In this document: positions 11,964-35,924 of the stretch, in pieces
Layout of the letters: every line of letters begins with the position of its first letter
Numbering within the stretch: position 1 is the first letter of the stretch
Notes under the pieces: generated by a model
What the model saw: the letters and a program-made list of their open reading frames with translations, nothing else
What the model was told of the DNA's origin: nothing
Databases searched by the model: none
Translations under genes and position numbers: made by a program
NCBI RefSeq assembly: GCF_900109195.1
Contig: NZ_FNZG01000003.1
Location: 558,001-622,000 of the forward strand
Direction of reading: 5' to 3'
DNA length: 64,000 bases
From: Pseudooceanicola nitratireducens
GTDB taxonomy: Bacteria; Pseudomonadota; Alphaproteobacteria; Rhodobacterales; Rhodobacteraceae

Positions 11964-12011
11964 CGGTTGCTTCGGCACCCCGGGCGAACCGGTGCCTGTC
12001 CGGTTAGTCCT

Positions 12012-12115
12012 CAGTCCGTCAGTCCGTCAGTCCGTCAGTCCGTCAGTCCGTCAGTCCGTCAGTCCGTCAGTCCGTCAGTCCGTCAGTCCGTCAGTCCGTC
12101 AGTCCGTCAGTCCGT
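12012..12115 (+). repeat. Perfect octanucleotide tandem repeat, 13 x CAGTCCGT
   Basis: Thirteen uninterrupted, identical copies of CAGTCCGT fill 104 bases. They begin 48 bases after the DUF2244 stop and lie between it and the minus-strand DUF3008 gene. Because 8 is not a multiple of 3, any copy-number change would shift a reading frame. No credible gene runs through the array. A perfect array implies recent expansion by slipped-strand replication, so copy number probably differs between strains. Confidence 0.97.
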
Positions 12116-12200
12116 CGAATGCGGGATACCGCTGCTGTCCAGCGGAATATCCGTTGGCTGGCGCGATCCAGTCCCGTTTCCGAACAATAGCCCTGCGGGC

Positions 12201-12524: not shown

Positions 12525-13736
12525 TCAGGTCACGCGACCCTTGGCATGATATTCCGGCCGGTCCCACAAGCGGTTGTCGATCACATCCGCCAGGATATCC
12601 ACCGCCGCGATCACGTCGTCCCGGTCGATATAAAGCGGCGTGAAGCCAAACCGCATGACGTCGGGCGCGCGGAAGTCGCCGATGACGCCCCGGGCGATCA
12701 GTGCCTGCATCGCAGCATAGCCTTGCTCGAAGGCGAAGGACACCTGACTGCCGCGTTCGTCCGCGTTGCGCGGGCTGATCAGCCGCAGCGCGGGGCAGCG
12801 GGCCTCGACCTCCTGGATGAAGGTCTCGCTCAGCGCGACCGAGGCGTCGCGGACCGCCGACATCTCGATCCCGTCCCAGGCGCGCATGGCGGTTTCCAGC
12901 GCCGACATCTGGATCACCGGCGGGGTGCCGACCCGCATGCGTTCGATATCCACCGCCGGGCGATAGTCCAGATCGAAGGCAAAGGGCGCATCATGCCCCA
13001 TCCAGCCGGACAGCGCCGGCTGCGCCTGCCCCACAAGGTCGGAACGGATATAGATGAAGGCGGGCGCCCCGGGCCCGCCGTTGAGGTACTTGTAGGTACA
13101 GCCCACGGCGAATTCGCAGCCCGACCCGGCCAGGTCGACCGGCACGGCCCCGGCGGAATGCGCCAGGTCCCAGATCATCACCGCGCCCTTTTCATGCGCC
13201 TTGCGGGTGATCGCCTGCATGTCGTGCATCCGGCCGGTGCGGTAATCGACCTGGGTGATCATGACCACGGCGATCTCGTCCGTGATGGCGTCCAGCACCG
13301 CCTCGGGGTCGACGACGCGCAGTTCATGGCCGCGGTCCAGGTGCCGGATCAGCCCCTGCGCGATATAGAGATCCGACGGGAAATTGCCGTTGTCCGACAG
13401 CACCACCCGGCGGTCAGGCCGCATCAAAAGCGCAGCGGACAGCGCCTGGTAGACCTTCAGCGACAGCGTGTCGCCCATCACGACCGACCCTTCGGGCGCG
13501 CCGATCAGCCGGGCGACCTGATTGCCGACGCGCACCGGCTGGCCCATCCAGTCGTCCACGTTCCAGCCCTTGATCAGGTGCTGGCCCCATTCTTCCTGCA
13601 CGACCTTGTCCAGGTGCGGCACCACGGCGCGCGGCAGCGGGCCCAGGGAATTGCCATCCAGATAGATCACCCCTTCGGGCAGGTGGAACCGGTCCTTCAC
13701 CGGCAGGGTTACGGGCTGGGTAACGGGATCGCTCAT
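12525..13736 (-). CDS. kynU: Kynureninase (403 aa)
   Basis: This PLP enzyme cleaves L-kynurenine to anthranilate and alanine. Motifs include [12 protein letters not shown] near the N-terminus, [10 protein letters not shown] (cofactor phosphate and substrate region), [16 protein letters not shown] with Asp190 and His193 contacting PLP, and [16 protein letters not shown] with Lys216 as the Schiff-base lysine. Length fits the bacterial family. Its ATG overlaps the kynA stop (ATGA), so the two are translated together. It is the last gene of the minus-strand operon that begins with the thioesterase. It supplies anthranilate for the CoA ligase encoded at 34.3 kb. Confidence 0.97.
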
Positions 13737-14566
13737 AGGGCTCCTCGCAGGTTCCAGAGTTCGGGGAAAAGCTCGACCTCGAGCATGCGGCGCAGGTAGG
13801 TCACGCCGCTGGTGCCGCCGGTGCCGCGCTTGAACCCGATGATCCGTTCGACCGTGGTGACGTGGTTGAAGCGCCAGCGGCGGAAGTAATCCTCAAGGTC
13901 CACCAGCTTCTCGGCCAGTTCATACAGCGACCAGTACTTGCGCGGATCCTGGTAGACGCGGGTCCAGGCCTGGGTCACCGCGTCATCGGCCTGGTGCGGG
14001 GCATCCATGCGATAGACGGAAGCATCGAAACTGACCCCCATCTCCTGCGCCAGCAGATCCAGCGCCACGTGATACAGCGACTTCTGCGCCAGTTCATCCT
14101 GCAGCATCGCCAGCAGTTCGGGCCGGTGTTCATGCGGTTTGACCATCGCGGGATTGCGGTTGCCCAGCACGAATTCGATCAGCCGGTACTGATGCGACTG
14201 GAAGCCCGACGACCGGCCAAGCGCATCGCGGAAGGCCCCGTATTCACTGGGCGTCATCGTGCGCAGCACATCCCAGGCGCTGTTCAGCTGTTCGAAAATC
14301 CGCGCCACGCGCGTCAGCATCTTGAAGCTTTGCCGCAGTTCCCCGGCCGCGACCGCCCGCCGCGCGGCGGCCAGTTCGAACAGCGCCAGACGCATCCACA
14401 ACTCGGACGTCTGGTGCTGGATGATGAACAGCATCTCGTCATGGGTGTCAGACCGGGGGGCCTGTGCCCCGATGATCTGGTCCAAGGACAGGTAATCGAC
14501 ATAGCTCATGTCCTTGGCAAAGGACATGCGGGCCCCGTCGCCCGCCGGATCATAGGCGTCGCTCAT
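13733..14566 (-). CDS. kynA: Tryptophan 2,3-dioxygenase (277 aa)
   Basis: This heme dioxygenase opens the indole ring of L-tryptophan to N-formylkynurenine, the first step of the kynurenine route. The signature [16 protein letters not shown] is followed by [18 protein letters not shown] with the distal His51 that contacts the indole NH. Later, [19 protein letters not shown] contains the proximal heme ligand His235, and [15 protein letters not shown] binds substrate carboxylate and ammonium groups. The start at 14566 is used, though the Met at residue 14 or 20 could also initiate. It is followed directly by kynU and preceded by a small RAM-domain gene. Confidence 0.97.
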
Positions 14567-14606: not shown

Positions 14607-14843
14607 TCAGAAGGCGGTGAATGTCATTGTGGTCAGCGTGCGCTCGATCCCCTCGACCGAGAAGATCGTATCGCTCAGGTAATGGCCGATATCCTGATCC
14701 TTGGGCACGTAGATCTTCAGCAGAAGGTCATACTGCCCCGAGGTCGAATAGAGTTCCGAATGCACTTCCTTCAGCGCGATGGCGTCGGCGACCTTGTAGG
14801 CCTGGCCGGGTTTGCACTGAATCTGCACGAACACACATTGCAT
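14607..14843 (-). CDS. Stand-alone Lrp/AsnC ligand-binding (RAM) domain (78 aa)
   Basis: The 78 residues form one beta-alpha-beta-beta-alpha-beta RAM domain with no DNA-binding helix-turn-helix. It starts [21 protein letters not shown], has the central [17 protein letters not shown], and ends [17 protein letters not shown]. Such stand-alone domains form ring-shaped oligomers and bind amino acids. The ATG at 14843 has GAAGGAAG upstream. It lies between the RidA-family gene and kynA in the same operon, so tryptophan, kynurenine or anthranilate is a plausible ligand (inference). It might also modify the activity of the full-length Lrp proteins encoded near 48-49 kb. Confidence 0.85.
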
Positions 14844-14920
14844 GGCTTGCTTCCTTCTTGTCGCGATCCCCAAGGGGTCGGCGTCGGTCTCTGCTTCGGT
14901 CACTGTGTCGGACCATGGCC

Positions 14921-15319
14921 TCAGGACGGCAGGACCGCCGTCGCCTCGATCTCGACTTTGGCATCGTCTTCCACCAGCGCGCTGACCACAACCATGGTCA
15001 TGGCCGGAAAGTGATATCCCATCACCTCGCGGTAGGCGCGACCCACTTCGCCCTGATGCGCGACATATTCCTTCTTGTCGGTCACATACCAGGTCAGGCG
15101 GGTGATATCCTCGACTTTGCCGCCGGCCGCATGGACCACGTCGGCGATATTCTGCAGCGCCTGTTTCATCTGGCCGATGAAATCCTTCGCCTCAAAGACC
15201 TGATCAGCGGTCCAGCCGATCTGGCCGCCGACGAACAGCACGCGCCCCTCGGCCACCATGCCGTTTGCATATCCCTTGGCCGGTTTCCAGCCCTCTGGAT
15301 GGATCGTCAGTGTGCTCAC
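14921..15319 (-). CDS. RidA/YjgF-family protein lacking the catalytic Arg (132 aa)
   Basis: A single RidA domain covers the protein: GMVAEGRVLFVGGQIGW, then QMKQALQNIADVVHAAGG, and VEIEATAVLP at the end. In imine-deaminating RidA the segment FPARSCVEV carries the key arginine. Here it reads FPAMTMVVV with Met107 in that place, so classic 2-aminoacrylate deamination is not expected. It belongs to one of the other Rid groups, some of which sit in catabolic operons. The GTG at 15319 overlaps the thioesterase stop (GTGA), and GGAGG lies 5-7 bases before it. It may act on a ring-derived enamine, but that is speculative given the missing arginine. Confidence 0.88.
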   Translation of the reverse strand: MSTLTIHPEGWKPAKGYANGMVAEGRVLFVGGQIGWTADQVFEAKDFIGQMKQALQNIADVVHAAGGKVEDITRLTWYVTDKKEYVAHQGEVGRAYREVMGYHFPAMTMVVVSALVEDDAKVEIEATAVLPS

Positions 15320-15735
15320 ACCGTTTCCTCCGAATAGTTCACCAATATCTCGCGCACGGCCTGCGGCCAGCGCTGTGCTTTCATCTGGTCCAGGTGGACC
15401 AGGACCAAAGTGCCCCGCACCGTCAGCCGATCCTGCCCGCCGCACCGCCCCTGAAGGGTGAAATCGGCGCTGGCCCCGCCGACGCGGGCAAAGGCAAAGG
15501 ACCACTCCATCACGTCACCCAGACGTGTCGGCGCATGGAAATCGGACTGGATGCGCCCCATGGGAACGCCCATGCGTTCGACCACGTGCATCTGGTTGAA
15601 GGACCAGCCGACCACGGCGTCGAAAAAGGTTTCGACCACCGCATTTATCATCTCGAAATAGCGCGGGTAGAAGACGATCCCCGCCGGGTCGCAGTGCTGG
15701 AACATCACCGCATTCTGATGCGCAAAGATGGCCAT
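15316..15735 (-). CDS. Hotdog-fold acyl-CoA thioesterase, 4HBT type (139 aa)
   Basis: The catalytic signature of 4-hydroxybenzoyl-CoA-type thioesterases is at the N-terminus: FQHCDPAGIVFYPRYFEM with Asp16. It is followed by the hotdog helix and a beta core (RLTVRGTLVLVHLD). Length is normal for the family. It is the promoter-proximal gene of the operon thioesterase / RidA-like / RAM / kynA / kynU, and it overlaps the next gene by 4 bases. A likely role is to release CoA from a stalled 2-aminobenzoyl-CoA or ring-product thioester. A similar thioesterase accompanies the 2-aminobenzoyl-CoA pathway elsewhere. Confidence 0.9.
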   Translation of the reverse strand: MAIFAHQNAVMFQHCDPAGIVFYPRYFEMINAVVETFFDAVVGWSFNQMHVVERMGVPMGRIQSDFHAPTRLGDVMEWSFAFARVGGASADFTLQGRCGGQDRLTVRGTLVLVHLDQMKAQRWPQAVREILVNYSEETV

Positions 15736-15827: not shown

Positions 15828-15867
15828 GAGAAATTTCAAGCCTAAAGTTTTATACTTGAAATTTCTC
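15828..15867. promoter_or_regulatory. Long inverted repeat, candidate MarR operator
   Basis: Two perfect 13-base arms, GAGAAATTTCAAG (15828-15840) and CTTGAAATTTCTC (15855-15867), surround a 14-base AT-rich spacer. They lie in the divergent region between the thioesterase (start 15735) and the monooxygenase (start 15918). The core half-sites TTTCAAG and CTTGAAA recur at 31681-31709 in front of the MarR gene. The position fits control of both divergent operons by one protein. Assignment to the MarR protein is inference. Confidence 0.7.
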
Positions 15868-15917: not shown

Positions 15918-18203
15918 ATGAAGGTTGTCTGTCTCGGAGGTGGGCCCGCGGGCCTGTATTTCGCCATCAGTCTCAAGCTGCGGGATCCGCAGGCCGAAAT
16001 CCTTGTGCTGGAACGCAACAAGCCCGATGACACCTTTGGCTGGGGCGTCGTCCTGTCGGATGAAACCCTGGACAACATGCGGACCAACGACCCCGCAAGC
16101 GCCGCGACCATCGCCAAGCATTTCGCCTATTGGGACGACATCAAGGTGGTGAAAGAGGACGTCGCGATCACCTCGTCCGGCCATGGGTTCTGCGGCCTGG
16201 GCCGCAAGCAGATGCTGATCGACCTGCAGAACCGCGCCCGAGAGCTGGGGATCGAGCTGCGGTTCGAAACCGAGGTCGACGATATCGACCGGCTCAAGTC
16301 CGAATACGATCTGGTGGTGGCCGCCGACGGCATCAACTCCAAGACCCGCACCCGCTATGCCGAGCATTTCAAACCCGAGATCGACACCCGCGCCTGCAAG
16401 TTCATTTGGCTGGGCACCCATGCCAAGTTCGACGATGCCTTTACCTTCATTTTCAAGAAGACCGATCACGGCTGGATCTGGGCCCATGCCTACCAGTTCG
16501 ACGACAATACCGCGACCTTCATCGTGGAATGCGCCGAAGACACGTGGACGGGCCTTGGCTTCGACCAGATGGACCAGGACCAGACCGTGGCGGAATGCGA
16601 ACGCATCTTTGCTGACCACCTGGGCGGCAACGACCTGATTTCCAACATGAAACACCTGCGCGGCTCGGCCTGGCTGAACTTCAACCGGGTGCTGTGCGAG
16701 AAATGGCATCACGAGAATGTCGTGCTGTTGGGCGATGCCTCGGCCACGGCGCATTTCTCGATCGGGTCCGGGTCGAAACTGGCCATCGAATCCGCCATCG
16801 CGCTGGCCGAACTGGTGCACAGCAAGCCGACCCTGGAAGAGGCCTTCAAGACCTACCAGGAAGATCGCCGCCTGGACGTGCTGCGCCTGCAATCGGCCGC
16901 CCGCAACTCGACCGAGTGGTTCGAGGAAGTTGAACGTTACCTGCACCTGGATCCGGTCCAGTTCACCTATTCCCTGCTGACCCGCAGCCAGCGCATCAGC
17001 CACGAGAACCTGCGCCTGCGCGATCCCGAATGGCTGCGGTCAGCCGAGGAATGGTTCCAGGCGCAAGCCGGCGAGAACGGTGTGCACCGCGCGCCGATGT
17101 TCGCCCCCTACCGTCTGCGCGACATGTCCCTGAAGAACCGCGTCGTGGTGTCCCCCATGGCGCAGTACAAGGCCGTCGACGGCTGCCCGACCGACTGGCA
17201 TTTCACCCATTACGCCGAACGCGCCAAGGGCGGTGCGGGTCTGGTCTATATCGAAATGACCTGTGTCAGCCCCGAAGGCCGGATCACCCCCGGCTGCCCC
17301 GGCCTGTATGCGCCCGAACATGAAGAGGCCTGGAAACGCCTGACTGGCTTTATCCATGCCGAAACGACCGCGAAGCTCTGCATGCAGATCGGCCATTCGG
17401 GGCGCAAGGGGTCGACCCAGCTGGGCTGGGACGACATGGACGCGCCGCTGAAGGACGGCAACTGGCAGACCGTCTCGGCCTCTTCTATCCCCTGGGATCA
17501 GGGCCACGCCGCGCCGCGCGCCATCGACCGGGCCGAGATGGACGTGATCCGCGATCAGTTCGTCGCCGCCACCGAAATGGCCGACCGCGCCGGGTTCGAC
17601 ATGGTCGAACTGCATGCCGCCCACGGCTATCTGCTGTCGTCCTTCATCTCGCCCGTGTCGAACACTCGCGATGACGACTATGGCGGGTCGCTGGAAAACC
17701 GCATGCGCTATCCGCTGGAAGTCTTTGCCGCCATGCGCGCCGTCTGGCCCGAAGCCAAGCCCATGTCGGTCCGCATCTCGGCCAGCGATTGGGTCGAGGG
17801 CGGCGTCACCGCGGAAGAAGCCGTGCAGATCGCCGCCATGTTCCGTGCCGCCGGTGTCGATATCGTCGACGTCTCGGCCGGGCAGACCAGCACCGATGCG
17901 CGGCCCGTCTATGGCCGGATGTTCCAGACCCCCTTCTCGGACCGGATCCGCAACGAAGGCGGCCTGCCCACCATGGCGGTCGGCAATATCTATGAACCCG
18001 ATCACGTGAACTCGATCCTGATGGCCGGGCGCGCGGATCTCGTCTGTCTGGCGCGACCGCACCTGGCCGATCCCTACTGGACGCTGCATGCCGCCGCTGC
18101 CCTGGGCGACGAGGCAACGGAATGGCCCCTGCCCTACCTGGCGGGCCGCGACCAGATGCGCCGCCTTGCGGAACGCGGCGAAGGTCTGGGGATCAAGGTA
18201 TGA
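15918..18203 (+). CDS. 2-Aminobenzoyl-CoA monooxygenase/reductase-type flavoprotein (761 aa)
   Basis: Two flavin domains are fused. Residues 1 to about 375 are a PHBH-like FAD monooxygenase, with [16 protein letters not shown] at 5-20 and [17 protein letters not shown] near 270. Residues about 390-761 are an old-yellow-enzyme barrel, with [30 protein letters not shown], the catalytic-face [11 protein letters not shown] near 565, and [11 protein letters not shown]. This is the architecture of the enzyme that hydroxylates and then reduces anthraniloyl-CoA. Such proteins are often labelled salicylyl-CoA 5-hydroxylase/oxidoreductase. A ribosome-binding AGGAGG precedes the ATG. It is coupled to the SDR gene by ATGA. 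Anthranilate from KynU and the aminobenzoate-CoA ligase support the aminobenzoyl-CoA assignment over salicylyl-CoA. Confidence 0.93.
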
Positions 18204-18949
18204 CCCTGCTTGCGGGCCGCCGCGCGCTGATTACCGGCGGCGGCTCGGGGCTGGGCGCGGACCTGGCGCTGCGCTTTGCCGATCAGGGGGCCGAGGTCTG
18301 GATCGCCGGGCGCCGCCCCGCGCCCCTGCAAGCCACCGCCGCGCGCCATCCGAACATCCGCACCGTCACCGCCGACATCACCGATGAGGCGCAGGTCACG
18401 GCCATGTTCGACACGGCAGGCCCCTGCGACATCGTCATCGCCAATGCGGGCGCGTCGGAAAGCGCCCCGCTGACCCGCACGACGCTGGCCAGCTGGCAAC
18501 AGATGCTGGACGTCAACCTGACCGGCACCTTCCTGACCCTGCGAGAGGCCGCACTCCGCCTGAAGGGCCAGGACTGGGGGCGGCTGATCGCCGTGGCCTC
18601 GACCGCCGGGCTGAAGGGGTATCCTTACGTTTCGGCCTATACGGCGGCGAAACATGGCACAATCGGGCTGGTGAAAAGCGCGGCGCTTGAGATGGTCAAG
18701 ACCGGGATCACGGTCAACGCCCTGTGCCCCGGTTTCCTCGACACCGAGATGACCGACCACTCCGTCGCCAATATCATGGAAAAGACCGGCAAGACCGACG
18801 CCGAGGCCCGCGCCTCGCTTGCGGCCATGTCACCGCAGAAGCGGCTAATCCAACCCTCCGAGGTCTCGTCCGCCGCGCTCTGGCTCTGCTCTCCGGGGTC
18901 CGAGGGGATCACCGGTCAGGCGATTTCGATCTCGGGCGGGGAAACCTGA
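18200..18949 (+). CDS. Short-chain dehydrogenase/reductase (249 aa)
   Basis: This is a classical SDR. The cofactor motif ITGGGSGLG lies near the N-terminus, then NAG in [10 protein letters not shown], and the catalytic Ser-Tyr-Lys set in [32 protein letters not shown] follows the active site. The C-terminus [13 protein letters not shown] is standard for NAD(P)-dependent 3-hydroxyacyl reductases. It overlaps the monooxygenase gene by 4 bases. In this setting it could act as a 3-hydroxyacyl-CoA dehydrogenase on the reduced ring product, the step expected before ring cleavage (inference). Confidence 0.92.
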
Positions 18950-26069: not shown

Positions 26070-26759
26070 TCAGACATGTAGAAAACGGTCCTTCACCTGC
26101 GGTGAGGCCAGAAGTTCGGGGGTAGAGCCGGTCCAGACAACGCGGCCCTTTTCGACCACCACGTGGCGGTCGGCGAACCGGGTCAGCGCATCGACGTTCT
26201 TGTCGATGACCAGGATCGCCTCTCCCTCTTGTTTCAGCCGTTCCAGGCAGGCCCAGATGTCGGCGCGGATCAGCGGGGCCAGGCCCTCGGTCGCCTCGTC
26301 CAGGACGACCAGCTGGGGATTGGTCATCAGCGCGCGGCCGATGGCCAGCATCTGCTGTTCCCCGCCCGACAACTGGTTGCCCATATTGCGCCGACGTTCG
26401 TGCAAGCGGGGGAACAGGTCGTAGATCCGCTGCAGGGTCCATTTGCCCGGACGGGCGGTGGCGCGCAGGTTCTCCTCGACATTCAGGGTGGGAAAGATCT
26501 GCCGGCCTTCCGGCACATAGCCCAGCCCCGCCAGCGCGATCCGGTGCGGATCGGCCCCGGTCAGGTTCTTGCCGCCGATCTTGACCGACCCGGCGCGTGG
26601 CTTGACCAGCCCGAAGATCGACTTGATCGTCGTGGTCTTGCCCATGCCGTTGCGGCCCAGAAGGGTCACGACCTCGCCTTCGCGGACGCGAAAATCGATG
26701 CCGAAAAGGATCTGGCTGTCGCCGTAGCCGGCCTCGAGCCCATTGACGTCCAGCATCAC
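26070..26759 (-). CDS. livF: Branched-chain-type ABC importer ATPase LivF (229 aa)
   Basis: This is a complete ABC ATPase: Walker A GRNGMGKTT, Q-loop region FGLVKPRAGSV, LivF-type YVPEGRQIFPTLNVEENL, signature LSGGEQQMLAIGRAL and Walker B LVVLDEATEGLAPL. LivF partners LivG in HAAT-family importers. It overlaps livG by ATGA. The start is MMLDVNGLEAGYGDS, the normal beginning for this family. Substrate specificity comes from the binding protein encoded at 29438-30625. Confidence 0.93.
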   Translation of the reverse strand: MMLDVNGLEAGYGDSQILFGIDFRVREGEVVTLLGRNGMGKTTTIKSIFGLVKPRAGSVKIGGKNLTGADPHRIALAGLGYVPEGRQIFPTLNVEENLRATARPGKWTLQRIYDLFPRLHERRRNMGNQLSGGEQQMLAIGRALMTNPQLVVLDEATEGLAPLIRADIWACLERLKQEGEAILVIDKNVDALTRFADRHVVVEKGRVVWTGSTPELLASPQVKDRFLHV

Positions 26760-27508
26760 GCGGCCTCCTCTTCTTCGCCCAGGTAGGCGGCCCGCACCTG
26801 CGGGTCCGACCGGATGGCCTGCGGTGTGCCGGTCGCGATGATGCGCCCATAGACCAGCACCGAAACCCGGTCGGCCAGCTGGAAGACCGCGTCCATGTCA
26901 TGTTCGATCAGGACCATGGTGAACCGCCCCTTCAGCCGTTGCAGGTTGGCGACGAAGGTTTCCGCATCCTCGCCCCCTACCCCGGCCAGGGGTTCGTCCA
27001 GCAGCAGCACCGAAGGTTCGGTGGCCAGGGCGATCGCCAGCTCCAACCGGCGATGTTCCCCGTGGCTGAGCGATTTGGCCAGAACGTCGGCCCGGTGATC
27101 CAGCCCCGCTTCGGCCAGGGCCTTCAGCGCGGCGCGGTTCAGCGCCTCTTCCCGCGCGACGGTGCCGAAGAACCGGAAGGACGACCCTTCCCGTGCCTGC
27201 ACCGCCAGGGCCACGTTTTCCAGCGTGGTGAACCCCGGCAGGACAGATGTGATCTGGAACGACCGCGCCAGCCCCAGCTTGACCCGGTCGGGCATCGACA
27301 GCCGGGTGATGTCGCGATCCCCAAGGGACACGGACCCGCCGTCGGACCCAAGCTGCCCGGAAAGCTGGGAAATCAGCGTCGTCTTGCCGGCCCCGTTCGG
27401 GCCGATGATGGCGTGGATTTCGCCCGGCTCCACCGCCAGGGACACGTCATCGGTGACCTTCAGCGCGCCGAAGCTTTTCGTCAGGTTGCGAACCGTCAAA
27501 GACGTCAT
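26756..27508 (-). CDS. livG: Branched-chain-type ABC importer ATPase LivG (250 aa)
   Basis: The protein contains Walker A GPNGAGKTT, the LivG feature LGLARSFQITSVLPGFTTLENV, signature LSHGEHRRLELAIAL and Walker B VLLLDEPLAGVGGEDAE. The C-terminal GRIIATGTPQAIRSDPQVRAAYLG is standard for LivG. The signature LSHGE in place of LSGGE is common in this subfamily. The ATG at 27508 overlaps the livM stop by 4 bases. The frame continues upstream only through livM sequence in another frame. Confidence 0.93.
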   Translation of the reverse strand: MTSLTVRNLTKSFGALKVTDDVSLAVEPGEIHAIIGPNGAGKTTLISQLSGQLGSDGGSVSLGDRDITRLSMPDRVKLGLARSFQITSVLPGFTTLENVALAVQAREGSSFRFFGTVAREEALNRAALKALAEAGLDHRADVLAKSLSHGEHRRLELAIALATEPSVLLLDEPLAGVGGEDAETFVANLQRLKGRFTMVLIEHDMDAVFQLADRVSVLVYGRIIATGTPQAIRSDPQVRAAYLGEEEEAA

Positions 27509-28494
27509 TCCTGTCTCCTTGCGATACCGGCCTTTTCCAGAAGCCCCGTGATGCCACGCGGCGAGAAGAGCACCATGAGAACCAGGAACACCCCGAAGAA
27601 CAGCTTCCAGTGTTCCGACAGCGCGCCCAGCCATTCCTCAAGCAGCAGCGCGGCAACTGCGCCCGCGATCGGCCCGGCCAGCGTGCCCACGCCGCCCAGC
27701 ACGACCATCACGATCAGCTCTCCCGAGCGGTGCCAGGACATGAAGGCCGGCGACACGAATTGCGCCTGGTTGGCCAGCATGACCCCGGCCACCGCCGTGA
27801 TGCAGCCCGAGATGACGAAGGCCGTCAGCTGGTAGCGGAAGGGCGAATAGCCGATGGCCTCCATCCGGGTTGGGTTTTCGCGGATGCCGGTCAGCACCCG
27901 GCCAAAGCGCGACCCGACAATGCGGTGACACAGGACGAACAGCGCGACCAGGATCGCCAGCGTGGTGTAATAGAGCCCGAAGTCGGATTTAAGCAGATCC
28001 ATCCCCAGCACGGTCGACCGCTGCATCAGCGCCACCCCGTCGTCCCCGCCATAGGCCGAGAGAGAGATGAAGAAGAAGAACGCCATCTGGCCGAAGGCCA
28101 GGGTGATCATGATGAAATAGACGCCCTTGGTGCGCAGCGAAATCGCCCCCGTCACCAGCGCGAAGATGGCCGAGATCGCGATCGCCGCAAGGATCTGCAG
28201 CACCAGGTCATTGACGCCCCAGCTGGCCAGGATCGCCACCGCATAGGTGCCGAACCCCAGGTAGGCCGCGTGGCCAAAGCTGACCATCGCGCCGTAGCCA
28301 AGGATCAGGTCCAGCGCCATGGCGGCGATGGCAAAGGCCAGGATCCGGGTGCCGATCAGCACGTAGAAGGGATCGTTCAGCGCGGCCGCCAGCGGCGGCA
28401 TCAGCGCGAACAGGACAAACAGGACCAGCGCAGCTTTCAGTCGCCCGGTCAGGGCGCGGCGCGGCGCGGTCAGCGTTGCGGTTGCGTCGCTCAT
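27505..28494 (-). CDS. livM: ABC importer permease LivM (329 aa)
   Basis: This inner-membrane permease has about nine hydrophobic helices. LivM marks are LGYGAMVSFGHAAYLGFGTYAVAIL and the cytoplasmic-loop motif GSRFGRVLTGIRENPTRMEAIGYSPFRYQL, which docks the ATPases. MVVLGGVGTLAGPIAGAV follows. The C-terminus FLVLMVLFSPRGITGLLEK is typical. It is coupled to livH and livG by 4-base overlaps on both sides. Confidence 0.93.
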   Translation of the reverse strand: MSDATATLTAPRRALTGRLKAALVLFVLFALMPPLAAALNDPFYVLIGTRILAFAIAAMALDLILGYGAMVSFGHAAYLGFGTYAVAILASWGVNDLVLQILAAIAISAIFALVTGAISLRTKGVYFIMITLAFGQMAFFFFISLSAYGGDDGVALMQRSTVLGMDLLKSDFGLYYTTLAILVALFVLCHRIVGSRFGRVLTGIRENPTRMEAIGYSPFRYQLTAFVISGCITAVAGVMLANQAQFVSPAFMSWHRSGELIVMVVLGGVGTLAGPIAGAVAALLLEEWLGALSEHWKLFFGVFLVLMVLFSPRGITGLLEKAGIARRQE

Positions 28495-29408
28495 GCGGTC
28501 CTCCCGAACAGGCCGGCGGGTTTGACCGACAGGATGACGGCCATCAGGATGTAGACAAGCATCGGGGCCAGCACGCGGCCCGTCTGTCCGGCGGCGGCGG
28601 GATCCATGATCTCACGCAGCCAGATCGGGCCAAAGACGCCGCCCACGGTGTCCACCACCGCAACCAGCAGCGCGCCCAGAAACGCCCCCTTGACCGATCC
28701 GATGCCGCCGATGACGACAACCACGAAGGTCAGGATCAGCACGGATTCCCCCATGCCGGTGTCCACCGACAGGATCGGCGCAACCAGCGCGCCAGCCAGG
28801 CAGGCCAGCACCGCGCCCAGGGTGAAGACCACGGCAAACAGCCGGTTGATGTCCACGCCAAGCGCCGAGACGGTCGAGCGGTTGGTGGCCCCGGCCCGCA
28901 GCAGCATGCCGACGCGGGTGTAGTTGACCATCACGAACAGCCCCAGGCCCACGGCCAGGCCCGCCACGATGATGGCGATGCGGTAGACCGGGTATTTCAG
29001 CGGCCCCATCAGCGGGATCGAGCCCGAGAAGACATCCGGCATCGGCACCGACAGGGGCGCGGTGCCCCAGATGATCTTGACCGCTTCGGTTGCGATCATC
29101 ACCAGGCCGAAGGTGGCCAGCACCTGGTCCAGGTGTGAGCGCGCATATAATCGTCGCATCACCACGAATTCGAGGATCAGCCCCACTAGCACGGCGGCCG
29201 GCAGCATCAGCAGGAAACCCCACCAGAAGCTGCCCGTGGCCGCCGCGAAAGTCGCGATCAGGTAGGCGCCCACCATGTACAGGACGCCGTGGGCCAGGTT
29301 GATCACGTCCATGATCCCGAAGACGAGCGTCAGGCCCGCCGCAATCAGGAACAGCAACACGCCCAGCTGTACGCCGTTGAGCAGTTGCAGGACAAAAAGG
29401 TTCATCAT
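28491..29408 (-). CDS. livH: ABC importer permease LivH (305 aa)
   Basis: The permease begins with LQLLNGVQLGVLLFLIAAGLTLVFG and INLAHGVLYMVGAYL, the standard LivH opening. GAVLACLAGALVAPILSVD and VVVVIGGIGSVKGAFLGALLVA are the conserved later helices. About eight hydrophobic segments fit the family. It forms the channel with LivM. Two adjacent ATG codons start the gene, 29 bases after the binding-protein stop. Confidence 0.93.
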   Translation of the reverse strand: MMNLFVLQLLNGVQLGVLLFLIAAGLTLVFGIMDVINLAHGVLYMVGAYLIATFAAATGSFWWGFLLMLPAAVLVGLILEFVVMRRLYARSHLDQVLATFGLVMIATEAVKIIWGTAPLSVPMPDVFSGSIPLMGPLKYPVYRIAIIVAGLAVGLGLFVMVNYTRVGMLLRAGATNRSTVSALGVDINRLFAVVFTLGAVLACLAGALVAPILSVDTGMGESVLILTFVVVVIGGIGSVKGAFLGALLVAVVDTVGGVFGPIWLREIMDPAAAGQTGRVLAPMLVYILMAVILSVKPAGLFGRTA

Positions 29409-29437
29409 GGTCGTAATCCCCCTGGCCGTCTAACCGA

Positions 29438-30625
29438 TCACATCTTGCACTGGTCGGCGTAGTTATCGACGTAGTCGTCGAAGATCTTCTCCTTGACCGA
29501 GGTGCCGTACATGCCGTCCTCGCGCTTCACCGCCTCGACCAGGTAGAAGTCCTGGATCGGGAAGTTGTTCTTCCCGAACGAGAAGTCGCCGCGCGGGCTG
29601 TCGAAATCGGCTTCCTTGATGGCGGCGTGCAGCGCGGCACGGTCCGTCAGGTCTCCGCCCACCTTGGCGACGGCGCTGTTGATCAGCTGGGCCGCGTCAT
29701 AGGCCTGCATGGCATAGGTGCCCGGCACCGCGCCGTATTTGGCGATATAGCCGTCGACGAATTCCTTGTTCGCGGCGTTGTCCATGTCCGGGGCCCAGTT
29801 GGCACCGCCCAGCATGCCGACGGCGGCATCCTGCGTTGCGGGCAACGTGGTTTCATCCACGGTGAAGGCCGACAGGAAGGGGATGCCCGACAGGCCCGCC
29901 TGGCTGTACTGCTTCACAAGGTTCACACCCATGCCGCCGGGCATGAAGGTAAAGACTGCATCGGGCTGGAAGGCCGCGATCTGTGCCAGCTCGGACGAGA
30001 AGTCCAGCTGCCCCAGTTCGGTGTAGATCTCGCCGGCCGTGCCGCCCTTGTAGGAATTCTTGAACCCTGCCTGGCTGTCCTTGCCCGCCTGGTAGTTGGG
30101 CGTCATCAGGAAGACGTTGTTGTACCCCTGGGCCTGGGCATAGGCGCCCATGACTTCGTGGTTCTGGTCGTTCTGATACGAGGTCGTGTAGAAGTTCGGA
30201 TTGCAGGCCTCGCCCGCCAGGGTCGAGGTCCCTGCGTTGGTCGAGATCAGAACCGTCCCGGTCGAGGTGACCGGCTGCACGATGGCCATCAGGATGTTGG
30301 AAAAGATCGGGCCGACGACGAAATCGACATTGTCGCGCAGCACCAGCTCATTCGCTTTCTGCGCGGCCAGGTCGGGCTTGCCTTCGTCATCGACGATGAT
30401 GATCTCGGTCTTCATGCCGCCCAGCTCGCCGATCTTCTCGGCGGCCAGCAGGAACCCGTCGCGGGCCTGCTCGCCCAGGGCCGCGGGCGGGCCGGACAGG
30501 GTGTAGACAAGGCCGATCTTCAGCACATCGTCGCTGGCCCCGGCGGGCACATCCTGTGCGATTGCAGGGGCCGTCAGGCCCATGGCCAGGACGGTGGATG
30601 CAAGTAGTCTGGATTTGTGGTTCAT
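29438..30625 (-). CDS. livK: ABC importer periplasmic binding protein, LivK type (395 aa)
   Basis: A signal peptide (MNHKSRLLASTVLAMGLTAP, cleavage near AIAQ) precedes a type I periplasmic binding fold. Recognisable parts are LKIGLVYTLSGPPAALGEQARDGF, FVVGPIFSNILMAIVQPVT, the ligand-site TNAGTSTLAGEACNPNFYTTSYQND and YAMQAYDAAQLI. It is less like leucine-binding LivJ/LivK and more like the aromatic-compound or amide-type binding proteins. Its gene lies just after the formamidase-like gene, so an aromatic such as kynurenine or anthranilate is a reasonable ligand (inference). The ATG at 30625 has GGGAG upstream. Confidence 0.9.
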   Translation of the reverse strand: MNHKSRLLASTVLAMGLTAPAIAQDVPAGASDDVLKIGLVYTLSGPPAALGEQARDGFLLAAEKIGELGGMKTEIIIVDDEGKPDLAAQKANELVLRDNVDFVVGPIFSNILMAIVQPVTSTGTVLISTNAGTSTLAGEACNPNFYTTSYQNDQNHEVMGAYAQAQGYNNVFLMTPNYQAGKDSQAGFKNSYKGGTAGEIYTELGQLDFSSELAQIAAFQPDAVFTFMPGGMGVNLVKQYSQAGLSGIPFLSAFTVDETTLPATQDAAVGMLGGANWAPDMDNAANKEFVDGYIAKYGAVPGTYAMQAYDAAQLINSAVAKVGGDLTDRAALHAAIKEADFDSPRGDFSFGKNNFPIQDFYLVEAVKREDGMYGTSVKEKIFDDYVDNYADQCKM

Positions 30626-30757
30626 GATTGAACTCCCTTGTTGAGACATGCGGCTTTTGCCGTCTGATTGGGCGCTAGGCCTCTTTGCCTGACGCGTCAC
30701 ACCGGGCATTCAGCGGGGCAACGCGTTGCAGATGCAAGTTATTTTCTGGTCACCTCG

Positions 30758-31678: not shown

Positions 31679-31711
31679 TATTTCAAGCTCAAACCTTTTT
31701 TGCTTGAAATA
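31679..31711. promoter_or_regulatory. Inverted repeat at formamidase/MarR intergenic region
   Basis: TATTTCAAGC (31679-31688) and GCTTGAAATA (31702-31711) form perfect 10-base arms around 13 bases. The half-sites TTTCAAG and CTTGAAA are the same as at 15834-15861, with nearly the same spacing (22 against 21 bases between half-site starts). It lies between divergent starts at 31579 and 31770. It is a candidate autoregulatory site of the MarR protein that also controls the formamidase/liv operon. Confidence 0.7.
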
Positions 31712-31769: not shown

Positions 31770-32276
31770 GTGACGATGAACGGCCCCAAGACCGAGAAGG
31801 CCCAAAGCGACGGCCCCGCCGCCGCCCTTGGCACCCCGTCGAAGGAACGTCTGCGCATGTGGCTGAGGATGCTGAAAAGCACCCGCCGGGTCGAAGCGCA
31901 GCTGCGTGAAAACCTGCGGACCGAGTTCAACTCCACCCTGCCCCGCTTTGATGTGATGGCCGCGCTGTCGCGCTATTCCGACGGGCTGAAGATGTCCGCC
32001 CTGTCGGGCGTGCTGAAGGTATCGAACGGCAATGTCACCGGCATCGTCGACCGTCTGGTCGACGAAGGACTGGTGGTGCGCGTGCAGGTCCCCGGCGACC
32101 GCCGCGCCTCTCTCGTGCGGCTGACCCGCAAGGGGGAAGAGGTCTTTGCCGCCCAGGCCCTCGCCCACGAGGCCTGGATCGATGAATTGCTGGGCAGTTT
32201 CACGCCCGAGGAGGCGCGCATGGTCTCGGACCATTTCGACATGATGCGCGATGATGATGAGGAGGAAGGCCAATGA
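31770..32276 (+). CDS. MarR-family regulator of aminobenzoyl-CoA genes (168 aa)
   Basis: The winged-helix core reads [23 protein letters not shown], then [23 protein letters not shown] and [17 protein letters not shown], the classical MarR recognition helix and wing. Dimerisation helices flank it. GTG 31770 or ATG 31776 could start it; GGAGG lies upstream of both. It overlaps the crotonase gene by ATGA, so the regulator is first in the operon for aminobenzoate activation. MarR proteins of aromatic-CoA pathways usually release DNA on binding the aryl-CoA, so 2-aminobenzoyl-CoA is the likely effector (inference). Confidence 0.9.
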
Positions 32277-33073
32277 GGGCCGATACGAAACATTTTCTGT
32301 GCCAGATCGAGGACGGCATCGCGACCATCCGCCTGGACCGTCCCGACCGCAAGAACCCGCTGACCTTCGACAGCTATGCCGAATTGCGCGACTGGTTCCG
32401 CGATCTGCACTACGACGACACGATCAAGGCCGTGGTCTTTGCCTCGAATGGCGGCAATTTCTCCTCCGGGGGCGATGTGCATGACATCATCGGCCCACTC
32501 ACCCGGATGTCGATGAAGGAGCTGCTGCAATTCACCCGGATGACCGGCGATCTGGTCAAATCCATGCTGAACTGCGGCAAGCCGATCATCACCGCCGCCG
32601 ATGGCGTCTGTGTCGGTGCCGGCGCGATCATCGCCATGGCGTCCGACCTGCGGGTCGCCACGCCCGAGGCGAAATGCGCCTTCCTGTTCACCCGCGTCGG
32701 CCTTGCCGGCTGTGACATGGGCGCCTGCGCCATGCTGCCCCGCATCATCGGCCAGGGCCGCGCGAACGAACTGCTTTACACCGGCCGCGCCATGACTGCC
32801 GACGAAGGCGAAAGATGGGGCTTCTGGAACCGCCTGATCCCCGCCGACCAGCTGGAAGCCGAGGCCGTCGCCTGGGCCAGGAAGATCGCCGAGGGCCCGA
32901 ACTTCGGCCACATGATGACCAAGACCATGCTGCAGCAGGAATGGTCCATGTCGCTGGACCAGGCCATCGAGGCCGAAGCCCAGGCCCAGGCCATCTGCAT
33001 GCAGACCGAGGATTTCACCCGCGCCTACAACGCCTTCGTCGCGAAGGAAAAACCCGTGTTCGAGGGCGACTGA
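32273..33073 (+). CDS. Crotonase-fold enzyme with non-canonical active site (266 aa)
   Basis: The enoyl-CoA hydratase/isomerase fold is clear: [25 protein letters not shown] (oxyanion loop), [20 protein letters not shown] and [19 protein letters not shown]. By eye, the two glutamates of true hydratases are replaced (Ile119 and Arg141), while Asp148 in the GCDMG loop is present. So it may be an isomerase, hydrolase or ring-cleaving enzyme and not a simple hydratase. It is coupled to the MarR gene and to the acyl-CoA dehydrogenase gene (TGATG). A step after 2-aminobenzoyl-CoA reduction is the expected role. Confidence 0.88.
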
Positions 33074-34233
33074 TGGCCGATCGGACCTTCCTTGACTGGC
33101 CCTTCCTGACGCCCGCCCACAAGGACCACGCCATGGCGCTGGACCAATGGGCCCAAGGGCTGGGCGCGATCGACCACCGCGACACCGACAACGCCTGTCG
33201 CGCGCTGGTGGCGAAACTGGGCGCGGATGGCTGGCTAAACCCCACGGCCGTCGATCCCGCCAACCCGCAGCCGCTGGACGTGCGCACCCTGTGCCTGTCC
33301 CGCGAAACCCTGGCCCGTCATGACGGGCTGGCCGATTTTGCCTTCGCCATGCAGGGCCTTGGAACCGGGGCAATTTCGCTGTTCGGTTCGCCCGAACAAC
33401 AAGGTGAATGGCTTCCCCTGACCCGTTCGGGTCGGGCGATTTCCGCCTTTGCACTCACGGAACCTCAATCCGGGTCGGATGTCGCCAATTCCACCATGAC
33501 GGCCCGCGACGACGGCGACGCATGGGTATTGGATGGGGAAAAAACCTGGATCTCGAACGGCGGGATCGCGGATGTCTACACGCTCTTCGCCCGCACCGGT
33601 GAAGGCCCGGGGGCCAAGGGCCTGTCGGCCTTCATCGTGCCCGCGGACACGCCCGGCTTCGAGATCGCCGAGCGGCTGGACACCATCGCCCCGCATCCGC
33701 TGGCCACCCTGCGCTTCACCGGCGCGCGGCTGCCGAAATCGGCGCTGATCGGCGCGCCGGGTCAGGGGTTCAAGATCGCCATGTCGGTGCTGGACGTCTT
33801 CCGCACCACCGTGGCCGCCGCCGGCCTGGGCTTTGCCCGCCGCGCCCTGGACGAAGCCACGGCCCGCGTCATGGCCCGCAAGGTCCAGGGCAAGCCCCTG
33901 GCCGATCTGCAGATGGTTCAGGCGCATATCGCGGAAATGGCGCTGCGCGTCGATGCCTCGGCCCTGCTGGTCTATCGCGCCGCCTGGACCAAGGACAGCG
34001 GCGCCCCCCGCGTCAGCCGCGAGGCCGCGATGGCCAAGCTTTTCGCCACCGACGAGGCCCAGAAGGTCATCGACGCGGCGCTTCAGCTGCATGGCGGTGA
34101 CGGGGTCAAATCCGGCGAAACCGTCGAACGTCTGTATCGCGAGATCCGCGCGCTGCGGATCTACGAAGGGGCCTCGGACGTGCAGAAAGTCATCATCGCC
34201 CGCCAGACGCTGGATGCAGCACTGGCCGGCTGA
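33073..34233 (+). CDS. Acyl-CoA dehydrogenase (386 aa)
   Basis: This is a FAD acyl-CoA dehydrogenase. [20 protein letters not shown] binds flavin, and [21 protein letters not shown] and [20 protein letters not shown] follow. The C-terminal [17 protein letters not shown] holds the catalytic base Glu365. Length is standard. The ATG at 33073 shares its A with the preceding stop. In this operon the probable substrate is the alicyclic aminobenzoyl-CoA product or its ring-opened acyl-CoA. Reduced flavin would pass to ETF. The specific substrate is not known. Confidence 0.92.
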
Positions 34234-34292
34234 CGAAACCAGAAAAACAAAAACCGGCATGGACCGGCAACAGGGAGTTCGAAACAACAAAG

Positions 34293-35924
34293 ATGGCACC
34301 TCAGACCCTCAACCTCGGCCCCTCGGCCCATGTCGACACATACACCCGCGACAACCTTCCCCCGGCGGATCAATGGCCCGATCTGCTGATGGATGGCTTT
34401 GACTATCCCGATCACCTGAACGTCGGCGTCGAGCTGACCGATGCCATGGTCGACAAGGGCTTTGGCGACAACACCGCCCTGATCGGCAACGGCCGCCGCC
34501 GCACCTACAAGGAACTGGCCGACTGGACCAACCGCCTGGCCCACGCCATGGCCGAGGATCTGGGCGTGCAGCCCGGCAACCGCGTGCTGATCCGGTCCGC
34601 CAACAACCCCGCCATGGTCGCCGTCTGGCTGGCCGCCACCAAGGCCGGCGCGGTCGTGGTGAATTCGATGCCCCTGCTCCGCGCGGGGGAACTGACGGCC
34701 ATCGTCGACAAGGCCAAGATCCAGTTCGCCTTCTGCGACACGCGGCTGATGGACGAAATGGCCACCTGCGCCAAAACGTCGGAATACCTGGAAAAGGTCG
34801 TGGGCTTTGACGGCACCTCGAACCACGACGCGGAACTGGACCGGCTGGCGCTGGAAAAGCCCGTGCATTTCGACGCGGTGAAGACCGGGCGCGATGACGT
34901 GGCGCTGCTTGGGTTTACCTCTGGCACCACCGGGTCGCCGAAAGCCACCATGCATTTCCACCGCGACATCCTGATCATCGCGGATGGCTACGCGAAAGAG
35001 GTCCTGGGCGTCACGCCCGAAGACGTGTTTGTGGGGTCCCCTCCGCTCGCATTCACGTTCGGGCTGGGCGGTCTGGCGGTGTTCCCGCTGCGCTTCGGCG
35101 CGGCGGCGACGCTGCTGGAAAACGCCTCTCCGCCCAATATGATCGAGATCATCCAGAAATATAAGGCCACGGTCAGCTTCACCGCGCCCACGGCCTACCG
35201 GGTGATGCTGCGCGCGATGGACGAAGGCGCGGACCTGTCGTCGCTGCGCGCCGCCGTCTCTGCCGGGGAAACCCTGCCCGCGCCCGTCTACGAGGAATGG
35301 ATCGAAAAGACCGGCAAGCCCATGCTGGACGGCATCGGCGCGACCGAGATGCTGCACATCTTCATTACCAACCGCTTTGACGACCACCGCCCCGCCTGCA
35401 CCGGCAAGCCCGTACGCGGATACGAGGCCAAGGTGATCGACGACGACGGGGCCGAGGTCCCGCGCGGCACGGTCGGACGCCTGGCCGTGCGTGGCCCGAT
35501 CGGCTGTCGCTACATGGCCGATGACCGGCAGAAGAAATACGTGCTGGACGGCTGGAACATCACCGGCGACGCGTTCTTCATGGACGAAGACGGCTATCTG
35601 CACTTTGCCGCCCGCAACGACGACATGATCGTCTCCTCGGGCTACAATATCGCGGGCCCCGAGGTTGAAGCCGCCCTTCTGTCACACCCGGCGGTGGTGG
35701 AATGCGCCGTCATCGGCCAGCCGCATGAGGAACGCGGCACCATCGTCGAGGCCCACGTCGTCGTCGCCGAAGGGCACGAGCCGGGCGAGAAACTGGTGAA
35801 GGCGCTGCAGGAACACGTCAAGGCGACCATCGCGCCCTATAAATACCCCCGCTCGGTCAAGTTCACCAAGGCGCTGCCCAAGACCGAATCCGGCAAGATC
35901 CAGCGCTTCCGCCTGAAGAACTGA
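34293..35924 (+). CDS. Benzoate-family CoA ligase, probable 2-aminobenzoate-CoA ligase (543 aa)
   Basis: This AMP-forming acyl-CoA synthetase has the P-loop LLGFTSGTTGSPKATMHFHRD at about 207-227, the adenylate motif DGIGATEMLHIF, and the hinge DGWNITGDAFFMDEDGYLHF. The C-terminal ESGKIQRFRLKN contains catalytic Lys535. TGSPKATMHFHRD and GATEMLHIFITNR are typical of the benzoate/aminobenzoate CoA ligase group. It makes 2-aminobenzoyl-CoA from the anthranilate released by KynU, using ATP. It ends the MarR / crotonase / acyl-CoA dehydrogenase / ligase operon and is followed by a strong terminator. Benzoate as substrate cannot be excluded. Confidence 0.9.
   Translation: MAPQTLNLGPSAHVDTYTRDNLPPADQWPDLLMDGFDYPDHLNVGVELTDAMVDKGFGDNTALIGNGRRRTYKELADWTNRLAHAMAEDLGVQPGNRVLIRSANNPAMVAVWLAATKAGAVVVNSMPLLRAGELTAIVDKAKIQFAFCDTRLMDEMATCAKTSEYLEKVVGFDGTSNHDAELDRLALEKPVHFDAVKTGRDDVALLGFTSGTTGSPKATMHFHRDILIIADGYAKEVLGVTPEDVFVGSPPLAFTFGLGGLAVFPLRFGAAATLLENASPPNMIEIIQKYKATVSFTAPTAYRVMLRAMDEGADLSSLRAAVSAGETLPAPVYEEWIEKTGKPMLDGIGATEMLHIFITNRFDDHRPACTGKPVRGYEAKVIDDDGAEVPRGTVGRLAVRGPIGCRYMADDRQKKYVLDGWNITGDAFFMDEDGYLHFAARNDDMIVSSGYNIAGPEVEAALLSHPAVVECAVIGQPHEERGTIVEAHVVVAEGHEPGEKLVKALQEHVKATIAPYKYPRSVKFTKALPKTESGKIQRFRLKN

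Follow-up and report, generated by a model that had tools for sequence, protein, structure and literature searches.

What does a Rid-family protein do once it has lost the arginine that its deaminating relatives need? The question is raised by one gene in the window, the whole 64-kb stretch of DNA (64,000 nucleotides) that was analyzed here. In TdcF this arginine binds the substrate carboxylate, as described in PMC4433059, and Rid proteins from which it was removed, RutC R104A among them, are reported to have lost all or nearly all of their deamination (PMC4433059, PMC8113886). The residue is taken in PMC5619798 as the determinant of deamination, and Rid subfamilies that lack it are reported to be without deaminase activity (PMC8113886, PMC5619798); an account from 2015 states that they "remain mysterious" (PMC4433059). 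As far as these assays are described in the same papers, they used free imino or enamino acids.

The gene lies exactly where a first reading of the DNA letters (hereafter the sequence-only reading) had placed it, at 14921-15319, on the minus strand, and encodes 132 amino acids. That reading had noticed a methionine at the position of the deaminase arginine, which alignment confirms as Met107 (...YHFPAMTMVVV...). It had also set the gene inside a kynurenine operon, tied the protein to 2-aminobenzoyl-CoA metabolism, and proposed that it acts there on a CoA-bound enamine.

The Rid gene and its neighbors

The window protein belongs to the Rid superfamily, with a score of 79.7 bits against PF01042 (Pfam; gathering cut-off 27.3). 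Its AlphaFold model, a monomer prediction, has a pLDDT of 93.3, and a structure search with this model shows 50 entries with Z between 15.2 and 18.2, many of them titled as RidA, RutC or YjgF type; the search confirms the Rid fold only, as Z ties under 1 pick no nearest subfamily. Scores against the curated subfamily models fall below their cut-offs, with 57.6 bits for TIGR00004 (RidA subfamily; cut-off 106.25) and 41.8 bits for TIGR03610 (RutC; cut-off 169.1).

The features of the locus are collected in Table 1. The overlap with a thioesterase gene that had been read from the sequence is confirmed at 4 nt, in which the Rid GTG start meets the thioesterase TGA stop. The Rid gene was also said to precede kynA and kynU. 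This holds for their order on the same strand, but not for direct adjacency, since a 98-codon AsnC/Lrp gene without the DNA-binding part sits between Rid and kynA. AsnC/Lrp-like stretches are also found within ~6 kb of Rid in six other loci (L004, L014, L016, L033, L035 and L045).

Divergent from the thioesterase gene is a gene whose 761-residue product joins a flavin monooxygenase to an old-yellow-enzyme domain; a short-chain dehydrogenase (SDR) gene follows. The fusion protein is the only one in the window's genome above the cut-off of NF006101, a model that NCBI names bifunctional salicylyl-CoA 5-hydroxylase/oxidoreductase. Because 2-aminobenzoyl-CoA monooxygenase/reductase (ABM/R) and salicylyl-CoA 5-hydroxylase have this one model in common, the substrate of the window protein is deduced from its gene context, and the label ABM/R is assigned on the same basis. 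A second gene group (31770-35924), comprising genes for a MarR regulator, an enoyl-CoA hydratase, an acyl-CoA dehydrogenase and a ligase, lies 13 kb beyond the ABM/R group and is adjoined by ABC transporter genes.

Table 1. Features of the window, with positions counted from its first nucleotide
Feature	Position	Strand	Basis
kynU, kynureninase	12525..13736	-	TIGR01814 above cut-off
kynA, tryptophan 2,3-dioxygenase	13733..14566	-	TIGR03036 384.8 bits, slightly below cut-off 390.7
Stand-alone AsnC/Lrp ligand-binding domain protein	14607..14903	-	PF01037
Rid-family protein, Met107 replacing deaminase Arg (P0002)	14921..15319	-	PF01042 match, alignment
4HBT_2-type thioesterase; stop overlaps Rid start by 4 nt	15316..15735	-	Domain match, sequence
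Inverted repeat TTTCAAG-N14-CTTGAAA, operator-like, between thioesterase-Rid operon and ABM/R	15834..15861	.	
ABM/R, 2-aminobenzoyl-CoA monooxygenase/reductase-type fusion	15918..18203	+	NF006101 1289 bits, cut-off 1078
Short-chain dehydrogenase (SDR)	18122..18949 (ORF; likelier start is ATG at ~18200)	+	ORF, domain match
Branched-chain-amino-acid/urea-type ABC transporter genes, a type also present in anthranilate-CoA clusters	26756..30709	-	
Second copy of the inverted repeat, N15 spacer, before the MarR-hydratase-dehydrogenase-ligase operon	31681..31709	.	
MarR-family regulator	31770..32276	+	
Enoyl-CoA hydratase family protein	32273..33073	+	73% identical to P. denitrificans cluster gene
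Acyl-CoA dehydrogenase family protein	32815..34233 (ORF; true start probably near hydratase gene end)	+	
Aryl-CoA ligase, candidate 2-aminobenzoate-CoA ligase	34293..35924	+	78% identical to P. denitrificans cluster ligase

Residue 107 and placement in the Rid family

In the alignment, the position of Met107 is occupied by Arg in E. coli RidA, TdcF, RutC and YoaB and by Trp in YjgH, while Tyr17 is kept in the window Rid and its Glu123 aligns with RidA Glu120. All 81 sequences of one set, drawn from 80 loci plus the window, have Met107; of the six search patterns behind this set, one included Met107 itself. A broader survey identified 197 Rid places, some of them the same place entered twice. 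One of these (L211) is broken by a stop codon and is without residue 107; 187 of the 196 others score at least 110 bits. Among these 187 related sequences (178 distinct, the window's included), 185 have Met107 and two have Ser, the latter (L238 and L243) both away from clusters. The nine sequences below 110 bits have Ala (five), Ser (two), Asn (one) and Met (one). As a background, 28 Rids (of 88 matches) were taken from 15 genomes without an ABM/R match, leaving out a paralog in the window's own genome that has Ala at this position; none has Met, and the residues are Arg in 15, Ala in five, Ser in three, Cys in two, and Thr, Asn and Asp in one each. The occurrence of Met107 across the related Rids is not due to chance. 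The Rid of one other locus, L015 (JAHVJD010000002.1), is 84% identical to that of the window.

A tree was also built, as the sequence-only reading had proposed by way of a check. With 44 Met and 44 other tips and rooted on YoaB, it gathers every Met tip, together with four Ser sequences, into a single clade (support 0.881), which branches among Arg-less Rids, including E. coli YjgH, away from RidA, TdcF and RutC. Within the Met clade, Trp36, Thr76, Pro105 and Ala106 are nearly or fully invariant, and Tyr17 and Glu123 are found in 183 and 184, respectively, of the 185 Met-type sequences. Conservation of Tyr17 and Glu123 was considered as a sign of catalysis and dropped, since the Glu123 equivalent is present in 29 of 29 other Rids examined, 14 of them Arg-less, and YjgH keeps both the Tyr and the Glu.

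Co-occurrence with ABM/R

The closest partner of the window Rid is the divergent ABM/R-type gene, not the kynurenine genes. Searches over the same 398 genomes of a phylum set, at E 1e-150 for ABM/R and E 1e-20 for Rid, find ABM/R in 69 and Rid in 69, with both in 67 and neither in 327 (by genus: ABM/R in 44, Rid in 44, both in 42); in a family set of 295 genomes, the corresponding numbers are 106 and 107, with both in 104 of the 106 ABM/R genomes, related genomes in these counts not being independent and some of the family set also belonging to the phylum set. Of the 67 phylum-set genomes with both, 59 have Rid and ABM/R within 15 kb of each other on a single contig. In the remaining eight, the two genes are on different contigs (five genomes), 38 kb apart (G392) or far from each other (G083 and G115).

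The exceptions are few. The ABM/R search, which scored at most two candidates per genome in the phylum set and at most three in the family set, has misses, as an ABM/R-like gene adjoins Rid in both phylum genomes that appeared as Rid-only (G019 and G394; loci L206 and L207). The two phylum genomes with ABM/R only (G349 and G296) both carry loci of the gentisate type described below, and both types of ABM/R occur in G225, as one gene each. In the family set, ABM/R without Rid is confined to G594, at a contig end, and G599, an assembly that is 62% complete; both may lack Rid only through assembly. Rid without a detected ABM/R is found in G458, G500 and G611, and the Rid of G611 has a stop codon. 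This last gene is the one at L211 (9731-10120), a member of the Met clade broken by an in-frame TAA.

Gene clusters and gentisate-type loci

Annotated records show Rid within the clusters. The order in Paracoccus is ABM/R, SDR, MarR, hydratase, dehydrogenase, thioesterase, Rid, ligase and transporter, and variants with Rid are present in Ruegeria, Comamonas, Sinorhizobium, Deinococcus, Roseivivax and Alloyangia; operon membership of Rid spans the Alpha- and Betaproteobacteria and Deinococcus. In Paracoccus denitrificans the Rid gene is PDEN_RS25310 and the ABM/R gene PDEN_RS25280, and in Ruegeria pomeroyi DSS-3 the Rid gene is SPO_RS21860. Across 101 ABM/R loci (100 and the window, in stretches of up to 20 kb), Rid is found in 66, SDR in 84, hydratase in 84, dehydrogenase in 78, ligase in 77, thioesterase in 32, kynA in 25 and kynU in 18. 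Nine of the 35 Rid-less loci, when seen in longer stretches, show Rid just past the transporter genes (L214-L222).

A kynurenine operon as the main link was rejected on these counts of kynA and kynU. The sequence-only reading was right in that the kyn genes follow downstream on the same strand, but the association is secondary to that of Rid with ABM/R.

The same collection contains a natural control. Rid is absent from all three of the 101 ABM/R loci with a gentisate-dioxygenase match in stretches of up to 20 kb, and these loci are also without SDR, hydratase, dehydrogenase and ligase matches in the same stretches; they would suit a nitrogen-free substrate. In a tree of 103 ABM/R proteins, the gentisate-type L136 pairs with the Rid-linked L124 (support 0.967), and the gentisate-type L142 and L147 belong to a five-member clade that includes the Rid-linked L130 and L127 (support 0.989). 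Gentisate-type ABM/R thus occupies two separate places and has switched at least twice on that tree. Since the whole beta-oxidation branch is missing along with Rid, the control cannot isolate nitrogen release as the function of Rid; what it shows is membership of Rid in the branch that handles the amino substrate. A locus of Cupriavidus taiwanensis contains ABM/R, a gentisate 1,2-dioxygenase-like cupin (311.7 bits against the gentisate 1,2-dioxygenase model; cut-off 442.1) and an FAH-family gene, and no Rid is listed in its incomplete gene table.

A link of Rid to gentisate dioxygenase and IorB was likewise rejected. A gentisate-dioxygenase-like gene is present in 23 of the 295 family genomes against 107 with Rid, and all 23 also have ABM/R and Rid, so that Rid tracks ABM/R and not the dioxygenase. 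Several individual loci have such genes nearby. In L033, L038 and L043, a Met-type Rid is followed by a gentisate/5-aminosalicylate 1,2-dioxygenase-like gene, with IorB alongside in L033 and L038 (L038 and L043 judged by eye). Two further loci, L228 (G200) and L232 (G217), contain a second Met-type Rid beside a gentisate-dioxygenase-like gene and an acyl-CoA dehydrogenase gene, and L232 also has IorAB-like genes (by eye). Elsewhere, in L209, L043, L058 and L051, an SDR gene is directly divergent from Rid at the place expected for ABM/R; the L209 stretch has ligase, acyl-CoA dehydrogenase, enoyl-CoA hydratase, MarR and SDR genes and no ABM/R.

An operator-like palindrome common to the pathway genes

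The palindrome TTTCAAG-N14/15-CTTGAAA occurs twice in the 64-kb window, against 0.00 expected, once before each gene group. A slightly shorter form, counted in the window together with 228 loci (4.29 Mb in total), yields 59 sites. Of these, 57 precede by at most 450 bp a gene for ABM/R, the thioesterase, Rid, MarR, a transporter or SDR, in loci that were chosen around those pathway genes and with gene starts estimated from alignments. The palindrome is absent from 56 of 143 ABM/R promoters; Comamonas, Cupriavidus and Deinococcus are among these cases, as are numerous loci from outside the family. As in the Azoarcus evansii-type aerobic 2-aminobenzoyl-CoA pathway, genes for ligase, ABM/R, hydratase, dehydrogenase, SDR, MarR and ABC transporter are clustered, and they have this site in common.

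Rids inside clusters have a site directly upstream in 17 of 142 cases, as expected for genes inside operons. Rid genes away from a cluster have a full or half site in 34 of 44 cases, mostly ~50–90 bp upstream, against 185 of 20000 random stretches, where the half-site pattern was chosen post hoc, the 44 genes are closely related and random stretches can hit true sites. By score, none of the 44 exceeds the control maximum and 25 exceed the control 99th percentile. The site-bearing moved Rids include L038 and L033, beside IorB, and a Leisingera group. This distribution of predicted sites suggests that the moved Rid genes remain in one regulon with the pathway. In the Leisingera group, the genes downstream of Rid resemble, by eye only, those of reductive pyrimidine degradation.

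Co-occurrence with ABM/R, operon membership, the common site and the absence of Rid from the three gentisate-type loci all bear out the proposed tie to 2-aminobenzoyl-CoA metabolism. Membership of Rid in the 2-aminobenzoyl-CoA (anthranilate) pathway is close to certain.

Proposed reaction and alternatives

We infer that the window Rid is probably a dedicated enamine deaminase of the aerobic form of this pathway, and it is the best candidate for nitrogen removal from the CoA-bound ring. The ABM/R product is described as unstable below pH 5 (PMC3534580), the CoA ester reported from anthranilate-grown cells of one strain matches the hydrolytically deaminated intact ring in its formula (PMC3534580), and a review leaves the later steps of the pathway at "enzymes of beta-oxidation" (PMC4539516). 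From these points it follows that at cell pH the pathway would require, or would at least benefit from, an enamine hydrolase. There is also precedent in the family, as RutC and AmnE already carry out enamine chemistry, which by analogy favors an enamine deaminase here.

Rid would plausibly form a trimer and receive the ring in a cleft where two subunits meet. A water held near Glu123 would hydrolyze the C2 enamine or imine there, releasing ammonia and leaving a 2-oxo (beta-keto) acyl-CoA. The keto thioester could then feed a crotonase-fold ring hydrolase, perhaps the enoyl-CoA hydratase family protein of the cluster, and subsequently beta-oxidation. By analogy with BadI-type hydrolases, a keto group would be needed before ring hydrolysis. 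The intermediate acted upon would be that before or after SDR reduction of the 5-oxo group. The family Arg normally grips the carboxylate of the substrate; here it would not be needed, because the substrate would be a thioester and not a carboxylate, and a near-invariant Met could stand in its place.

Two points count against a deaminase: loss of the Arg wholly or almost wholly inactivated the other Rid deaminases described, and the enamine may hydrolyze by itself. In addition, some Rids of the Met clade adjoin IorB and gentisate-dioxygenase-like genes. The suggestion made from the sequence, that the protein acts on a CoA-bound enamine in 2-aminobenzoyl-CoA metabolism, is now better supported, and the sequence-only interpretation as a whole is partly supported. 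For the wider claim, that a separate Met-for-Arg clade of Rids consists of beta-enamino-acyl-CoA deaminases carrying out the nitrogen-releasing step of the aerobic anthranilate-CoA pathway, with the Arg reporting a carboxylate substrate and not deamination as such, the chances appear evenly balanced.

Rid could instead act later in the pathway, deaminating a linear beta-enamino acyl-CoA after the ring has been opened. It stays with the beta-oxidation branch where no ABM/R is nearby (L209 and L213 have ligase, acyl-CoA dehydrogenase, enoyl-CoA hydratase, MarR, SDR and Rid), and the gentisate-type ABM/R loci are without branch and Rid together; however, the formula of the CoA ester reported from one strain in PMC3534580 is that of a deaminated ring still intact, and this order of events is unlikely. 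Damage control would give Rid the clearance of a side product, for example the quinone imine from 5-hydroxyanthraniloyl-CoA formed by ABM/R when NADH is short, with the thioesterase and gentisate-dioxygenase-like enzymes handling the rest. 5-Hydroxyanthraniloyl-CoA has been reported under NADH limitation (as cited in PMC3534580), the thioesterase is present in 32 of the 101 loci, and the 23 family genomes with gentisate-dioxygenase-like genes all have ABM/R and Rid. We consider this role quite unlikely, as the near-perfect co-occurrence suggests a main step and not an accessory one, and the thioesterase is far rarer than Rid, which is found in 66 of the same loci.

A non-catalytic role, in which Rid would serve ABM/R or the CoA enzymes as a sensor, a chaperone or an assembly factor, would accord with the reported inactivity of Arg-less subfamilies and with the chaperone function that has been reported for modified E. 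coli RidA. Retention of Tyr17 and Glu123 is no counter-argument, since the Glu is likewise kept in YjgH and in other Arg-less Rids, but the very tight link to one enamine-making pathway is what would be expected of an enzyme; this weighs weakly against such a role, which we hold to be improbable. Finally, Rid might pre-empt 2-aminoacrylate or other imines arising from the PLP enzyme kynureninase or other amino-acid enzymes, in the manner of RidA. The kynurenine genes do lie downstream of Rid on the same strand in the window, but kynU is present in only 18 of the 101 ABM/R loci, the Arg for carboxylate imines is absent from all 187 sequences of at least 110 bits, and the matched NCBI models score far below their cut-offs, which makes a RidA-like function very improbable.

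Comparison with characterized Rid proteins

RidA and TdcF have the same fold as the window Rid (E. coli YjgF 1qu9, Z 17.4; TdcF 2uyj, Z 17.2) and the equivalents of Tyr17 and Glu120. They differ in the required Arg105, which is Met in the window Rid, and in their clade on the tree, and the window Rid is partnered with a CoA-thioester pathway. RutC resembles the window Rid, as proposed here, in being a catabolic-operon Rid that deaminates a beta-enamine, in its case 3-aminoacrylate (PMC8113886), and its structure (3v4d) is the top-ranked match with Z 18.2, tied within 1 with many others. Unlike the window Rid, it keeps and needs Arg104 and has a free-carboxylate substrate, according to PMC8113886. 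AmnE, which carries the name 2-aminomuconate deaminase, is a Rid by family and by fold (6izh, Z 16.3) and acts by enamine deamination in the breakdown of an aromatic amine, 2-aminophenol (PMC6742747). It keeps a conserved cleft Arg117 (PMC6742747), taken here as the same family Arg, and where the window Rid would act on a CoA ester, AmnE acts on a dicarboxylate whose ring has been opened. The Rid4-Rid7 subfamilies (such as YjgH and Rid7) resemble the window Rid in lacking the Arg, but Rid4 and Rid7 are described with Trp at this position (PMC4433059) where the window Rid has Met107. For Arg-less subfamilies of the Rid4/Rid7 type, the account in PMC4433059 reports no reaction.

A literature search returned, in the accessible text of the papers covered, no Rid protein linked to 2-aminobenzoyl-CoA; the paper of Schuhle 2001 on the Azoarcus evansii cluster lay outside its scope and may list such a gene. 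Enamine deaminases in benzoate regulons have already been suggested in general terms (PMC6449761), and more Rid reactions are expected in catabolic operons (PMC8113886). If the proposed reaction is correct, the rule that ties the Arg to deamination holds only for carboxylate substrates, and Arg-less Rids can be searched for activity on further enamines that are neutral or thioesters. The reaction would also close a gap between ABM/R and ring cleavage in the breakdown of anthranilate and tryptophan.

Tryptophan breakdown in the window

The genes of the window, as annotated by their predicted functions, can be read as a route from tryptophan to anthranilate, anthraniloyl-CoA and onward, encoded in two groups and with the formamidase step only guessed. 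An alpha/beta hydrolase at 30758-31579, above the NF058665 cut-off, may be the kynurenine formamidase of the pathway, although this is only a guess. In R. pomeroyi, an alpha/beta hydrolase gene adjoins the tryptophan dioxygenase gene. Directly downstream of kynU, the window contains 14 copies of an 8-bp unit, AGTCCGTC, that are 99% alike (12006-12116).
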